Virus record (IMG/VR): IMGVR_UViG_3300031951_000041
Location: 1-64,000 of that record
Length of the DNA: 64,000 bases
Source of the DNA: a virus
Reading direction: 5' to 3' (one strand)
Positions 5,438 through 46,347 of this stretch are shown piece by piece (the first letter of the stretch is position 1; each line of letters begins with the position of its first letter). A model generated the notes under the pieces. That model saw nothing but the letters and a program-made list of their open reading frames with translations. It ran no database searches and was not told the origin of the DNA. The translations under genes and the position numbers were made by a program.

Positions 5438-5862
5438 GCGGTAAAGTTGAAAAAGGTTGGGGGTACGAAGATATATGGGTTACCTCCGATAAATACTGTA
5501 GTAAATTTATGCACTTTAAAACAGGTGCTAAATTCTCAATGCATTTTCATGCTCAAAAAGAAGAAACCTGGTACATTCTTAAAGGTAAGTTTATAGTTAC
5601 CTGGATCGATACAGATACAGCCGACCGGTATTCAAAAGAAGCAGTGGAGGGGGATATAGTACATAATCCCCCTTTGACTCCTCATCAACTTTATTGTATA
5701 GAAGAGGGGATTGTTTTAGAAGTATCTACACCCGACTCTGTAGAAGATAACTACAGAGTCGAACCGGGTGATAGTCAGTCGCGGGGTGGCGCAGAGGTAG
5801 CGCGCTGGACTCATAATCCAGAGGTCATAGGTTCGAATCCTATCCTCGCAACCATTATATAG
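5425..5862 (+). CDS. Cupin protein (mannose-6-phosphate isomerase type II-like), 3' end runs through a tRNA
   Basis: 145 residues. Cupin core: KYCSKFMHFKTG, then MHFHAQKEETWYILKG (metal-binding H-x-H and E) and PHQLYCIEEG. The recognisable domain ends about VEDNYRVEPGDSQ (residue 118). The remaining 27 residues are translated from tRNA sequence to a TAG eight bases after it. The usual family C-terminus is at that GDSQ position, so the original stop was probably lost when the tRNA gene arrived. Overlaps the glycosyltransferase by 13 nt. Confidence 0.8.
   Translation: MARLSGKVEKGWGYEDIWVTSDKYCSKFMHFKTGAKFSMHFHAQKEETWYILKGKFIVTWIDTDTADRYSKEAVEGDIVHNPPLTPHQLYCIEEGIVLEVSTPDSVEDNYRVEPGDSQSRGGAEVARWTHNPEVIGSNPILATII
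5780..5854 (+). tRNA. tRNA-Met (CAT), initiator-like
   Basis: 75 nt with encoded CCA. Acceptor 5' strand CGCGGGG (5780-5786) faces CCTCGCA (5844-5850), leaving a C1 x A72 mismatch, the hallmark of bacterial initiator tRNA. D stem GCGC/GCGC, anticodon stem CTGGA/TCCAG with loop CTCATAA (anticodon 5812-5814), T stem ATAGG/CCTAT with loop TTCGAAT, discriminator A. Two initiator traits are absent: the three G:C pairs below the anticodon loop (here GGA:TCC) and the A11:U24 pair. Confidence 0.92.
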
Positions 5863-7153: not shown

Positions 7154-9664
7154 ATGCTATACTATACCAATATTGTTACTCGCGGCAATTTCGTTTACTT
7201 TCGTGGTGTTCACGACGGTAAACGCATAAATGAAAAAATACCTTTCAAGCCCTCACTCTTCGTTCGTTCAGGTAAAGAGACAAAATATAAATCTCTTACA
7301 GGTGAGAATCTCGAAAGAATAAGATTCGACAGTCTCAACGAAGCTAGAGATTTCATTAAGAATTATAAGGAAGTTAGTAACTTTCCAATCTATGGAAATA
7401 CTAATTTCGTATATCAATTCATTAGCAAACTTTTTCCAGGTATTATAAAGTTTGATACGTCACATATGAAAATTGTGACCATTGATATAGAAACATCTAC
7501 TGAGTATGGCTTTCCTGACCCTCGAACTGCTCAAGAAGAGATCTTGCTGATTACCGTACAAGATTTTAATACCAAGAGATCTTTGTCTTTTGGTTGTAAA
7601 CCCTACTTGTGCAAAACCGAAGATTCAGAATATATTCAATGTAATGATGAATTCGATTTATTACGTAAGTTTATTGACCATCTTAAAAAGGATTATCCAG
7701 ATATTATAACTGGATGGAACGTTCAACTATTCGATATTGCATATTTATCTTCCCGAATTGAACGAGTATTAGGTAAGGATTCACTTAGCGAATGCTCACC
7801 CTGGGGGATGGTCCAGTTTAGAGAAGTCCCATTCTCCAGAGGTAGGACAGTGATGGCTTGCGACTGGCATGGTATCTCAGTGCTGGATTACATGGATCTA
7901 TATAAGAAATTCTCATATAAGGTTCAAGAGTCTTATTCTCTAGATTATATCTCTAAAGAAGAGTTAGGTAAGCAGAAGATCAAACATAACTATGGATCAT
8001 TCAAAGAATTCTATACAAAAGATTGGGAATTATTCGTAGACTATAATATTACAGACGTAAGACTAGTTGATGAACTAGAAGATAAGATGAAGCTTATTAA
8101 TCTTATCTTGACTATGGCGTATGATGCTAAGTGTAACTTTTTAGATATCTTCTCTTCAGTTCGCACCTGGGACTGTATACTGTATAATGCGTTGTTAAAG
8201 CGAGACATCATAGTACATAATCCACCAGGAGTGGACCCGGAAAGTGATAGACAGATTATGGGTGCGTACGTTAAAGAACCTGTACCTGGTCAGTATGATT
8301 GGGTAGTATCTTTTGACGCTACTTCGCTGTATCCTTCCATAATTATGTCCTGGAATATGTCTCCTGAGACATTAATTAACGGTCAAAAGTACTTAGCAGA
8401 TGACGAAAGATCGATACAAAAATTACTCGATAGAGAGTTCATAACTGATAATTTAAAAGAGAAAAACTATGCAATGACTGCTAACGGTCAATGTTTTAGT
8501 AGAGAAAAGAAAGGTATCTTTCCTGAGCTGATTGAATTTTATTTTGCTGAACGGCAGAAAGCTAAGAAGCTCATGTTAGAGATGCAGACGTTGTACGAAG
8601 AAACAAAAGATGAAAAATATCTAAAAGAGGTATCTAGTTTAAATTCTAAACAGATGGCAGCGAAGATTTTGATGAACTCGCTTTACGGTGCCATGGGTAA
8701 CATTTACTTTAGATACTATGATATACGAGTGGCTGAAGGTATTACCATGACCGGTCAATTTATTATTAGATCGGTCGCCAACAAACTTAACGAATTTATT
8801 AATAAGGAGTGTAAAACAAATGGAATTGATTATTCTTTTTATTCTGATACTGATTCTACCTATTTTACCTTGGGTAATTATGTCAAAAATGTCGGCAAAG
8901 ATGGACCAACGACCGGACTTGTGGAACAAATTGACCACTATTGCAGTACCAGAATCGAGCCTACTATCAACGCAACCTGCGACGAAGTCTCAAACTACCT
9001 CAACGCCTACCAAAAGAAAATCAAGTTCAAAAGAGAAGTAATCGCTGATCGGGGTGTTTGGATTGCTAAAAAACGCTATGCATTAAACGTACACAATGCA
9101 GAGGGTGTTGTTTACGACCCACCTAAACTCAAAGTGTTGGGTATGGAGATTGTTCGGTCATCGACACCCGCTCCTGTACGTAAAGCTCTTAAAGAAGCGG
9201 TAAGTATTGTTCTAACTAAAGATGAAGAAACGCTAAGAGCTTTTGTAAATAAACTGGAAAGTGAGTGGAGAAAGTTAGAACCAGAGGAGATATCTTTTCC
9301 ACGAAGTGTTAATGGGTTGAAAGAGTATAGCGATAAGACTAGTATCTTCCGAAAAGGTACTCCGATTCATGTGAGGGGTGCCTTGATATATAATCATTTA
9401 ATACGTAGTAGAGAACTTGAAAAACAATATCAGTTTATTCAAGAAGGTGACAAAATTAAGTTCGTTTATTTGAAGGAGCCGAATCCTTACAGTACCCATG
9501 TAATTACTTTCAATTCGGTTATTCCAAAAGAACTTAGACTTCGTGAATATGTAGATTATGAAACTATGTTTGAAAAGTCGTTTCTAGAACCGCTTAATTC
9601 ATTATTAAAATGTGTTGGGTGGAATATAAAAGAACAAGCCACATTAGAAGGATTATTTGTATGA
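7154..9664 (+). CDS. 43: DNA polymerase gp43 (family B with 3'-5' exonuclease)
   Basis: 836 residues in one uninterrupted ORF (T4: 898). Exonuclease motifs: DIETS with D111/E113, ITGWNVQLFDIAY (Exo II), YNITDVRLVDE (Exo III). Polymerase motifs: A FDATSLYPSI (D388), B K504-x3-NSLYGAMGN, C YSDTDS (D565, D567). All catalytic residues are present. No intein or intron is inserted at motifs A-C, frequent insertion sites. It replicates phage DNA with gp44/62/45, gp32 and the gp41/61 primosome. Stop overlaps the nuclease start as ATGA. Confidence 0.98.
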   Translation: MLYYTNIVTRGNFVYFRGVHDGKRINEKIPFKPSLFVRSGKETKYKSLTGENLERIRFDSLNEARDFIKNYKEVSNFPIYGNTNFVYQFISKLFPGIIKFDTSHMKIVTIDIETSTEYGFPDPRTAQEEILLITVQDFNTKRSLSFGCKPYLCKTEDSEYIQCNDEFDLLRKFIDHLKKDYPDIITGWNVQLFDIAYLSSRIERVLGKDSLSECSPWGMVQFREVPFSRGRTVMACDWHGISVLDYMDLYKKFSYKVQESYSLDYISKEELGKQKIKHNYGSFKEFYTKDWELFVDYNITDVRLVDELEDKMKLINLILTMAYDAKCNFLDIFSSVRTWDCILYNALLKRDIIVHNPPGVDPESDRQIMGAYVKEPVPGQYDWVVSFDATSLYPSIIMSWNMSPETLINGQKYLADDERSIQKLLDREFITDNLKEKNYAMTANGQCFSREKKGIFPELIEFYFAERQKAKKLMLEMQTLYEETKDEKYLKEVSSLNSKQMAAKILMNSLYGAMGNIYFRYYDIRVAEGITMTGQFIIRSVANKLNEFINKECKTNGIDYSFYSDTDSTYFTLGNYVKNVGKDGPTTGLVEQIDHYCSTRIEPTINATCDEVSNYLNAYQKKIKFKREVIADRGVWIAKKRYALNVHNAEGVVYDPPKLKVLGMEIVRSSTPAPVRKALKEAVSIVLTKDEETLRAFVNKLESEWRKLEPEEISFPRSVNGLKEYSDKTSIFRKGTPIHVRGALIYNHLIRSRELEKQYQFIQEGDKIKFVYLKEPNPYSTHVITFNSVIPKELRLREYVDYETMFEKSFLEPLNSLLKCVGWNIKEQATLEGLFV

Positions 9665-42144: not shown

Positions 42145-42888
42145 ATGGCAAGAAAGCAAGCTCAGTTAAACGTAGATAATCAACCAAAAGTTTCATTAGT
42201 ATCAAATAAATTGAAACTACGAATTGATGACCTAAGAACAATACAACCTTTAACTAATAATCAAAGAAAGTTTTTTGAGCTTTATAAAAATTCATCAGCC
42301 ATTTTATTACATGGAGTCGCAGGAACAGGAAAATCTTATATTGCACTTTACAAAGCCCTAGAAGAAGTTCTAGATCGTTCAACCCCCTATCAAAAAGTTG
42401 TTATTGTAAGATCAGCGGTCCCGTCCAGAGATATTGGACATTTACCTGGAGATGAAAAAGAAAAGACCGAGGTTTATCAGCAACCGTATGTAGAAATCTG
42501 CGAAGATCTATTCTCTAGAAAAGATGCATTTCAACGTCTTCAGGAGCAGCAATCTGCTGCTTTTATGATAACTTCATTTGTTCGCGGGATTACATTGGAT
42601 GATTCTATTATTATCGTAGATGAATGCCAGAACATGACTGATATGGAGCTAAATAGTATAATGACTCGTGTAGGTAATCGTTCCAAAATCATCCTATGCG
42701 GGGACTTCAGACAGACGGATTTATATAAGAAAACTGATATGTCCGGTCTGAAGAAATTTATGGCCATCGCGGATATGATGCCATCATTTAATGTTGTAGA
42801 ATTCGAAGTAGGTGATATTGTTCGTTCGGCTTTAGTTAAAGAGTATATTTTAGCAAGGATGGAATATGAAGAAAAATACGGAACGTAA
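42145..42888 (+). CDS. phoH: PhoH-like ATPase
   Basis: 247 residues. Walker A HGVAGTGKSY (about 55-64), RSAVPSRDIGHLPGDEKEK and Walker B IIIVDECQNMTDME, then ILCGDFRQTDLYK: complete PhoH signature. Widespread in marine phages; proposed to act in RNA handling or stress, exact role unproven. First gene after a terminator; ACGAGGG upstream. Confidence 0.95.
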   Translation: MARKQAQLNVDNQPKVSLVSNKLKLRIDDLRTIQPLTNNQRKFFELYKNSSAILLHGVAGTGKSYIALYKALEEVLDRSTPYQKVVIVRSAVPSRDIGHLPGDEKEKTEVYQQPYVEICEDLFSRKDAFQRLQEQQSAAFMITSFVRGITLDDSIIIVDECQNMTDMELNSIMTRVGNRSKIILCGDFRQTDLYKKTDMSGLKKFMAIADMMPSFNVVEFEVGDIVRSALVKEYILARMEYEEKYGT

Positions 42889-45279: not shown

Positions 45280-45471
45280 ATGATAATTTGCTCCTGTAGA
45301 AATATACGTGAATCAGACTTTCCAGATAAAGATAAATTAATTTTACGTCTGTATGAGGATGACGCGCAATGTAGGGTTTGTTTAGAGAATATCGATAGGT
45401 ACAAGAGTAAACCGAATACGTTTATGGGTGCTTGGGCTTACTATAGTTTAAACAAAGAGTTTAGTAAATAA
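45280..45471 (+). CDS. Bfd-like small ferredoxin ([2Fe-2S]-binding)
   Basis: 63 residues. IICSCRNI at the start and CRVCLENI near residue 32 give the C-x-C ... C-x2-C spacing of BFD-type domains, which in bacteria release iron from bacterioferritin or accept electrons. The distance between pairs (about 25) is slightly shorter than in Bfd. Fits the iron theme of the phage (Dps-like, IscU, ErpA). Alternative: a plain zinc knuckle. Confidence 0.65.
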   Translation: MIICSCRNIRESDFPDKDKLILRLYEDDAQCRVCLENIDRYKSKPNTFMGAWAYYSLNKEFSK

Positions 45472-45474
45472 ATA
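45467..45474 (+). promoter_or_regulatory. Possible late promoter box AATAAATA
   Basis: AATAAATA overlapping the Bfd-like stop; start point would be about 45480, at the head of the tmRNA acceptor piece. Could be coincidence in an AT-rich region. Confidence 0.4.
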
Positions 45475-45479
45475 TTTTT

Positions 45480-45544
45480 AATTGTTGTATGATGCAAACT
45501 GAAAAGGGTTCTGGACGCGGGTTCGACTCCCGCCTGGTCCACCA
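45480..45544 (+). ncRNA. ssrA: tmRNA acceptor piece (3' half) of a circularly permuted ssrA
   Basis: Contains the tmRNA-type block GGACGCGGGTTCGACTCCCG: T stem GCGGG (45517-45521) / CCCGC (45529-45533), loop TTCGACT, acceptor strand CTGGTCC (45534-45540), discriminator A and encoded CCA 45542-45544. No matching 5' acceptor strand lies upstream; it lies 120 nt downstream at 45665. 5' end of the piece is a guess. Confidence 0.88.
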
Positions 45545-45556
45545 AAAGGAGATTGT

Positions 45557-45748
45557 ATGCCAGTAGATATGTACTACTATACTGAGAGTGAATGGAATCG
45601 TTTAGGGTGTGGACCTCTTCCACCTGAACGAGATATTCGTAATAAGGTAAAGTCTTCTTTTGAGGGGCCAGACATGGTTTCGACAGGGTCAAGAGTAGGG
45701 GAGTGGACAACACGTCAGGCGATCGACGTTAATGAAGCAAATAAGTAA
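45557..45748 (+). CDS. ORF between the two tmRNA halves
   Basis: 63 codons starting with ATG 45557 after a very good AAAAGGAG. The first ~35 codons (MPVDMYYYTESEWNRLGCGP and a charged helix) fill the segment removed from the tmRNA precursor; the rest reads through the 5' half of the tmRNA coding piece, stopping just before the tag. Could be a true peptide gene trapped in the intervening segment, or chance. No family recognised. Confidence 0.4.
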   Translation: MPVDMYYYTESEWNRLGCGPLPPERDIRNKVKSSFEGPDMVSTGSRVGEWTTRQAIDVNEANK

Positions 45749-45832
45749 TCGCAAATGACGAGTACTACGCTCTAGCAGCTTAAATTGCTAGATGGGGTTT
45801 CGGTAGCTGTCCTTATTACCCAATCAGCTACC
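45665..45832 (+). ncRNA. ssrA: tmRNA coding piece (5' half) with tag reading frame
   Basis: GGGCCAG (45665-45671) pairs fully with CTGGTCC of the upstream piece, including a G3-U70 wobble, the alanine identity signal. CATGGTTTCGACAGG is the D-loop region. ACGTC 45712-45716 / GACGT 45725-45729 is part of the first pseudoknot. The tag frame GCA...TAA at 45751-45783 encodes ANDEYYALAA (E. coli: ANDENYALAA). After it: CTAGCA/TGCTAG hairpin and an H-type pseudoknot (45795-45798 with 45818-45821; 45802-45809 with 45825-45832). 3' end approximate. Confidence 0.93.
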
Positions 45833-45854
45833 TTAATGATTTTCAGTACGGTAG

Positions 45855-45862
45855 TATAAATA
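45855..45862 (+). promoter_or_regulatory. Late promoter box TATAAATA upstream of pqqA
   Basis: Exact TATAAATA, 76 nt before the pqqA ATG. Predicted start about 45868. Confidence 0.6.
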
Positions 45863-45867
45863 ATATT

Positions 45868-45938
45868 TTAGTAGATTCACTTCATATGTTCAATAGATAA
45901 TATGGACCGGCAATAGTGCCGCCATAAAGGAGAAAAAT
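45868..45938 (+). promoter_or_regulatory. Leader of pqqA with hairpin
   Basis: About 70 nt containing a CGGC-AATAGT-GCCG hairpin (near 45908-45921) just before the AAAGGAG ribosome binding site. GTTCA and GGAC runs faintly recall glutamine-type riboswitch cores, but the diagnostic GGAAGTAGG is absent. Confidence 0.35.
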
Positions 45939-46074: not shown

Positions 46075-46347
46075 ATGAGTAATATGTCACCATTCGAGAT
46101 CCGTCTCGAACTTCTTAAGATGGCCAAGGAAATGCTTACTGAAGATTATTACAGTAAGCGAGATCAAGTTTCCAACGACTGGCAAGTTAAAGTAGAAAAC
46201 GCTCGCCACGCCGGTGCAACACCACCTGATCATCCAGGCTTTCCATCATACCCCACTGAAACAGATATTATTAATAAAGCGCAAGCTTTGAATGGTTTTG
46301 TTTCTCAACTTCCAGATGTAAAAGTTACTAAGAAATCTACCGCTTAG
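46075..46347 (+). CDS. Conserved phage protein, 90 aa
   Basis: FEIRLELLKMAKEMLTEDYY then a KRDQVSNDW helix and a Pro-rich turn. Family of small helical proteins in marine phages, often highly expressed; AAAAGGAGATG upstream. Followed by a hairpin. Function unknown. Confidence 0.72.
   Translation: MSNMSPFEIRLELLKMAKEMLTEDYYSKRDQVSNDWQVKVENARHAGATPPDHPGFPSYPTETDIINKAQALNGFVSQLPDVKVTKKSTA

Follow-up and report, generated by a model that had tools for sequence, protein, structure and literature searches.

The window analysed here (the whole 64,000-nt stretch, part of a viral record of 117,856 bases) carries a circularly permuted tmRNA gene, and the segment between the two RNA pieces contains a Shine–Dalgarno sequence and an open reading frame. 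We judge it likely that this is a phage-borne permuted tmRNA of the betaproteobacterial type with a selected protein gene in its intervening segment, in which processing and translation of the same RNA compete.

Anatomy of the permuted tmRNA and its locus

ARAGORN places a permuted tmRNA with the tag ANDEYYALAA at 45452-45874, and two Rfam covariance models concur: RF04321 (tmRNA_permuted) scores 139.8 bits over 45483-45783 (gathering threshold 47), and RF01850 (beta_tmRNA) scores 137.4 bits over 45435-45845 (gathering threshold 84, E 7.6e-42). A sequence-only reading had proposed a permuted tmRNA with this tag at 45480-45832, to be checked by covariance models; its boundaries are right to within a few bases and both models exceed their thresholds. 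The features of the locus are as follows.

42145-42888, plus strand: PhoH-like protein (phrog_170, E 6.9e-79), the upstream marker for finding syntenic loci
45483-45544, plus strand: acceptor piece, with P2 strand, T arm, 3' acceptor strand, discriminator A and encoded CCA (ARAGORN; RF04321/RF01850; 66 relatives)
45517-45533, plus strand: T-stem and loop GCGGG-TTCGACT-CCCGC (sequence reading)
45534-45540, plus strand: 3' acceptor strand CTGGTCC (sequence reading)
45541-45544, plus strand: discriminator A and encoded CCA (sequence reading)
45545-45664, plus strand: intervening segment of 120 nt between the encoded CCA and the 5' acceptor strand (sequence, Rfam, relatives)
45545-45660, plus strand: precursor hairpin, AAAGGAGATT (45545-45554) paired with AGTCTTCTTT (45651-45660) (covariation in relatives, fold z)
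45546-45551, plus strand: Shine–Dalgarno sequence AAGGAG of the nested gene, within the hairpin 5' strand (sequence; same element in the nested relatives L519 and L525)
45557-45748, plus strand: nested gene, 63 aa, MPVDMYYYTESEWNRLGCGPLPPERD... (nested and free-standing homologues; dN/dS against L519)
45665-45833, plus strand: coding piece, with 5' acceptor strand, D-loop, tag-flanking core, tag and 3' pseudoknot-like element (ARAGORN; Rfam; relatives)
45665-45671, plus strand: 5' acceptor strand GGGCCAG, perfect 7 bp with the 3' strand, including G3-U70
45751-45783, plus strand: tag frame ANDEYYALAA and stop; resume codon GCA at 45751-45753, TAA at 45781-45783 (ARAGORN)
45795-45832, plus strand: 3' pseudoknot-like element, GGTAGCTG/CAGCTACC at 45802-45809/45825-45832, plus GGGT/ACCC
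46075-46347, plus strand: downstream neighbour in the position of the late-transcription coactivator gene (gp33) of phage Melnitz (80 homologous loci; Melnitz gene order)

The T arm and the CCA-bearing strand lie upstream of the 5' acceptor strand, as the earlier reading had it, and the D-loop reads ..GGTTTCGAC. The order of parts, the 7-bp acceptor stem with G3-U70, the scores above curated thresholds and the tag frame with its degron-like end are those of a permuted tmRNA. A one-piece gammaproteobacterial tmRNA was rejected, the standard gene order being absent in both the ARAGORN and the Rfam results. The group I intron type was also set aside, with the T-loop TTCGACT intact and the Rfam scan returning no group I intron match.

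Searches that used PhoH and the downstream gene as queries yielded 160 loci in viral contigs. ARAGORN, run on these loci, six further loci and the window itself, gave 94 hits that represent 68 distinct genes, all permuted, with 27 tags. The acceptor stem is a perfect 7-mer in all 66 parsable distinct genes, in six pair sets; pairing itself helped to locate the 5' acceptor strand, whose distances to the D-loop and tag were kept fixed. The T-stem is a perfect 5-mer in the same 66 genes (ten pair sets), and G3-U70 is kept in every acceptor stem; among the relatives the paired strands change in concert. Since the intervening segment ranges from 26 to 208 nt in these relatives, the perfect pairing of strands so far apart is strong evidence, at the level of sequence comparison, for selection on a folded two-piece domain.

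The intervening segment itself appears to be folded. The hairpin begins directly after the CCA, and four bases, TGAG (45661-45664), separate it from the 5' acceptor strand. Its mean helix length among the loci is 10.5 bp, compared with 5.4 bp when 3' ends were reassigned among loci (maximum 6.0 in 300 trials). Pairs 2-8 are present in 95-100% of the relatives, with 3-6 pair types each, and the fold z of the window hairpin is -4.8. The covariation of this hairpin, which encloses the intervening segment, supports the view that one precursor is made and processed, in which the segment and the acceptor stem would be folded, transcribed and matured together.

The body of the RNA is betaproteobacterial in type: RF01850 is over threshold and the best model of its clan in the window, and the relative L031 also matches it. 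The alphaproteobacterial permuted type of Melnitz and SAR11 (RF01849) was therefore rejected for the window; that model is the best one in Melnitz and in L074. Repeated swaps between the two types at this locus are not claimed, as the PhoH tree requires only two changes. The gammaproteobacterial link as drawn earlier came from the tag alone and is not supported. Tags at this one locus range over ANDERFALAA, ANDDYFYQDLKLAA and ANDNVAFAGYALAA; a tag thus tells little about the host, and host inference by tag similarity was dropped. Some tags lack the LAA end or have an abnormal length (ANDNSYRMVA, ANNDYFYQDLKLVA, ANESSFLMAA and tags of 27 residues; loci L061, L110, L151, L525, L479 and L480), which may reflect a changed degron or a lost tagging role. 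Recent capture from a host is not supported: one of 398 sampled Pseudomonadota and four of 150 genomes of one order pass the RF01850 threshold, and the bacterial relatives found match the coding piece at about 71-78% identity.

Several further observations concern the tRNA-like domain. T-loop position 55 and D-loop position 18 covary among the phage genes, T55 occurring with GG in 45 of 45 and G55 with AG in 20 of 21, the exception (L080) being ambiguous by spacing. The switch requires at least 5-6 changes on the PhoH tree, and the independent pairs are too few for significance. Phage loci used for this pattern include L006, L026, L034, L074, L080 and L137, among others, and the bacterial loci are L170-L282. 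Most of the parsed bacterial G55 tmRNAs (Elusimicrobia, Patescibacteria, Clostridia and a few Rhodobacteraceae) also have AG, and G55 was rejected as a phage novelty because the same combination is found in bacterial tmRNAs of several phyla. In L028, L049 and Melnitz (L404, around 8150-8180) an unusual T-loop, GGCAGTA, replaces TTCGANT; the Melnitz sequence reads GGGGGCAGTACCC. The intervening segment of L019 holds a second T-arm-like sequence, GAGGGTTCGATTCCCCACC, perhaps a duplication or a tRNA remnant. Synechococcus phage BUCT-ZZ01 (ON615601; L403, 3797-4215), whose recorded host is Synechococcus, has an unannotated permuted tmRNA with the tag ANDETFSMALAA, over threshold in the beta model.

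The surrounding genes are T4-like (PhoH, endolysin, exonuclease, 2OG oxygenase, helicase loader and ssDNA-binding protein), in the order phoH, exonuclease, tmRNA, late-transcription coactivator, helicase loader and gp32. The gene at 46075-46347 marks this conserved locus, and its product had no match of its own in the PHROG search. Identical sequence occurs in two other contigs, L082 and L163 (100% over 4.3 and 6.2 kb); a contig of 165,076 bases is among those with identical sequence. An SmpB gene was not found in the 117,856-base record, which may be incomplete, and a scan for promoters and terminators gave no signal exceeding chance. Just 3' of the tmRNA, TATAAATA at 45855-45862 fits the T4-like late promoter motif. 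The only tRNA gene of the window, a tRNA-Met(cat) at 5780-5854, lies far from the tmRNA. Directly upstream of the tmRNA, the ORF at 45280-45471 encodes a small CxC protein (MIICSCRNI...), whose family (L062, L164-L167 and L224) includes free-standing copies next to tRNA genes in L165 and L166 and copies nested within the tmRNA in L062 and L224. An antisense ORF at 45441-45713 (90 aa) was set aside as the complement of the tmRNA.

The gene nested in the intervening segment

The intervening segment is not simply spacer: it carries a Shine–Dalgarno sequence and a reading frame that the earlier reading overlooked. The frame starts with the ATG at 45557, remains open through the segment and the acceptor and D-arm strand, and ends 2 nt short of the resume codon. 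The conserved part of the protein, residues 1 to about 26, lies within the intervening segment. Homologues were searched with the first 50 residues as query. The close nested relatives are L519-L523 (about 80%) and L525 (59%), and about 45 free-standing homologues have 53-67 residues (L524-L569). The family shares an invariant RLGCGPLPPER, with 13 invariant residues across 27 aligned sequences. The nested protein had no significant match among Pfam, PHROGs and PDB profiles, and no free-standing homologue was found among 50,697 phage records; the ORF is a member of an undescribed phage protein family. The structure model is weak overall, its confident part being the conserved N-terminal helix-turn motif. 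The C-terminal half stems from tmRNA sequence and is predicted to be disordered (from residue 35 onward, pLDDT is about 45), so that conservation extends over less than the length of the free-standing relatives.

Most members of the family are free-standing and lie 0.1-0.5 kb upstream of permuted tmRNAs; a permuted tmRNA is found 81-1080 bp downstream in 33 of the 40 free-standing loci with enough flank. Besides the window, at least two further sequence types have the gene nested inside the tmRNA. The nested copy is the only family member in the 117,856-base record, and the same is true of the 165-kb contig. The linkage to tmRNA genes hints, weakly, that the protein may have a role in translation during infection.

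Comparison of the window with the nested copy in L519 over 25 codons reveals 18 base differences, of which 16 fall at third positions, and one amino-acid change. Under an expectation of one-third, the probability of this distribution is about 2e-6 by arithmetic. The dN value is 0.03; with dS saturated, the strength of selection can be given only imprecisely. From this pattern of substitutions, it is well supported that the nested gene is kept intact by purifying selection. L520 and the window have unrelated flanking genes; the tmRNA thus seems to travel or persist together with its nested gene as one unit.

Other genes occupy the same position. We collected 201 distinct intervening segments, 179 of them viral, and grouped the viral segments of at least 75 nt into 79 clusters, each of which was tested for a Shine–Dalgarno sequence, an ATG and a frame open to the end. 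Such a combination is present in 17 of the 79 clusters. In 1000 shuffles of the segment cores, with the ends left in place, the number of such clusters averages 0.69 and reaches at most 4, so that no shuffle attains the observed 17. The frame ends within the segment in 6 of the 17 clusters, in several on a conserved TGAT before the acceptor, and passes the expected RNase P site in the other 11, including the window. In many shorter segments, ORFs are no more frequent than chance. Among the bacterial segments collected, which are mostly short (median about 30 nt), none of 22 examples has a Shine–Dalgarno sequence with ATG and ORF, and only three of these are at least 75 nt long.

One of these other genes encodes the PF09791 (Oxidoreductase-like) domain, which is nested in dozens of contigs (L034, L043, L069, L141 and L464-L500) and is under purifying selection (dN 0.03-0.20, dS 0.65-2.6). 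In the nested copies the segment supplies no start codon; traced backwards, the frame stays open across the CCA and T arm as far as an ATG in the acceptor piece, and tmRNA bases would thus encode the N-terminus, if these copies are translated at all. Free-standing PF09791 copies (L501-L503) have their own ATG. Further cargo includes CxC Fe-S-like peptides related to the window ORF at 45280-45471 (L062, L224), a piece matching phrog_4098 (L084) and short hydrophobic peptides of 24-33 residues (L297, L306, L350, L510 and L566).

A proposed competition within one transcript, and rival readings

In the mechanism that we propose, one precursor RNA would be made, its two pieces pairing in the acceptor stem and P2 with the intervening segment as a hairpin atop the acceptor stem. 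Host RNase P and 3' trimming enzymes would excise the hairpin to leave a two-piece tmRNA, which host AlaRS would charge with alanine via G3-U70. Together with host SmpB and EF-Tu, the charged tmRNA would rescue stalled ribosomes and add ANDEYYALAA; these factors are assigned to the host because no SmpB was found in the viral record. An LAA end, as in this tag, is typical of ClpXP degrons, and the tagged products would pass to host ClpXP-type proteolysis. It is plausible that the phage tmRNA rescues ribosomes on degraded host mRNA. The nested protein would be translated from its own Shine–Dalgarno sequence. This sequence is part of the hairpin, and the frame extends across the 5' acceptor strand; translation would therefore require a precursor that is unfolded or incompletely transcribed. 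With the Shine–Dalgarno sequence paired and the ribosome having to cross the 5' acceptor strand, translation and maturation would be mutually exclusive for each molecule. Each transcript therefore probably yields either protein, early and co-transcriptionally, or tmRNA, as far as the layout of the sequence indicates.

A simpler account is an ordinary phage permuted tmRNA in which the nested ORF is a decaying insert, open by accident and unexpressed. The free variation of intervening segments in length and content (26-208 nt), the PF09791 segments that lack a start codon and the absence from the nested product of the C-terminal part of the free-standing family would all fit such an insert. Yet the window and L519 share a derived junction and the residues MPVDMYYYTESEW and differ almost only at third positions, Shine–Dalgarno sequences with ATG and full-length ORF far exceed the shuffled expectation, and the window genome has no other copy; we regard decay as unlikely. 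The third-position divergence could instead reflect selection on free-standing ancestors, if the nested copies were inserted independently. Many free-standing homologues do lie near tmRNAs, the L520 flanks are unrelated to the window, and the nested L525 sequence (YYYSEDEW) is nearer to the free form than is that of the window; L525 may well be a separate insertion, judging from this sequence. However, the window and L519 have in common the start-site context AAGGAGATTGT-ATG, a truncated N-terminus and the variant DMYYYTESEW, which is in none of the aligned free copies, and their adjoining acceptor pieces differ by a single base over about 60. The near-identical acceptor piece, the shared start context and MPVDMYYYTESEW make one nested ancestor of these two copies more likely than two insertions, and independent insertion as a general explanation seems quite improbable to us.

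Two readings concern the function of the RNA. The tmRNA could lack function or interfere with that of the host, perhaps as a decoy titrating host SmpB, the role proposed for the RNA of mycobacteriophage DS6A (PMC4131195). This would agree with the missing SmpB gene and with the DS6A-type RNA itself, which consists of a tRNA-like domain only and is reported to inhibit tmRNA (PMC4131195). Unlike DS6A, the relatives keep a complete tag frame, mostly with LAA-type ends, and G3-U70 is retained in all 66 acceptor stems; we consider this reading very unlikely. The other reading regards the intervening segment as a cargo slot tied to maturation, where processing makes a nonstop mRNA and the product is tagged by the same tmRNA. 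The E. coli protein ArfA is a precedent, its nonstop mRNA being controlled by trans-translation. The window frame continues beyond the expected RNase P site; should processing release the segment, the resulting mRNA would have no stop and its product would be a tmRNA substrate. ArfA and the nested protein share no homology, and we hold this feedback to be doubtful. If it were true, the nested protein would build up only while tmRNA maturation is delayed or tmRNA activity is scarce, and the phage would have a built-in switch between protein and tmRNA output. Our preferred reading remains that of a functional permuted tmRNA with a selected nested gene.

Relation to known tmRNA genes

Permuted tmRNA in aquatic phages, a rare, split form of the RNA, is itself already known, and one has been described at the same locus. 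The OM43 myophage Melnitz (Methylophilales; MZ577097) has a published two-piece tmRNA, and 53 two-piece forms are among the 133 unique phage structures reported (PMC9004378). The parallel with Melnitz named in the sequence-only reading holds: the tmRNA is of the same phage-borne permuted, probably two-piece kind and the locus is syntenic from phoH to gp32. In Melnitz, too, the tmRNA lies between the exonuclease and the late-transcription coactivator, followed by the helicase loader and the ssDNA-binding protein, and its 142-nt intervening segment holds an unannotated ORF with a Shine–Dalgarno-like site, MFKWLSKTRLVV.... The differences lie in the RNA and its surroundings. Melnitz has an alpha-type tmRNA (RF01849) with the tag ANDNYVPVDYALAA and an adjoining glutamine riboswitch, whereas the window has a beta-type tmRNA with another tag, and no riboswitch in it is over the Rfam threshold. 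A gene in the intervening segment goes unmentioned in PMC9004378, where the word 'intervening' occurs 0 times.

Bacterial permuted ssrA genes (RF04321/RF01850, for example L405 with the tag ANDERFALAA) share with the window the order of parts, the acceptor, the D- and T-loop motifs, the tag frame and the covariance-model scores; they differ in their mostly short intervening segments, which lack nested genes of this kind in the 22 examples. A parallel in arrangement is the group I intron form, where a protein gene also lies inside the removed part of a tmRNA gene. According to the accessible text of the 2025 tmRNA database paper (PMC11915505), that gene encodes a LAGLIDADG endonuclease and resides in a self-splicing intron in the T-loop. 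The window has no intron, and a small non-endonuclease protein is encoded in the intervening sequence of a permuted form. For the permuted form, the same accessible text names a tRNA-Ala gene and a repetitive element as contents of an intervening sequence, and has no mention of protein genes there. No description of a protein gene in a tmRNA intervening segment was found in the open literature searched. To our knowledge, it is new that the excised portion of a tmRNA holds a protein gene under selection and that many phages carry different cargo at this one position.

This arrangement would explain why phage intervening segments far exceed the bacterial ones collected here. If it is true, RNA annotation hides small phage genes, and the locus would provide a natural system in which translation of an RNA competes with its processing by RNase P. 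The reason why aquatic phages retain tmRNA would thereby become directly testable.
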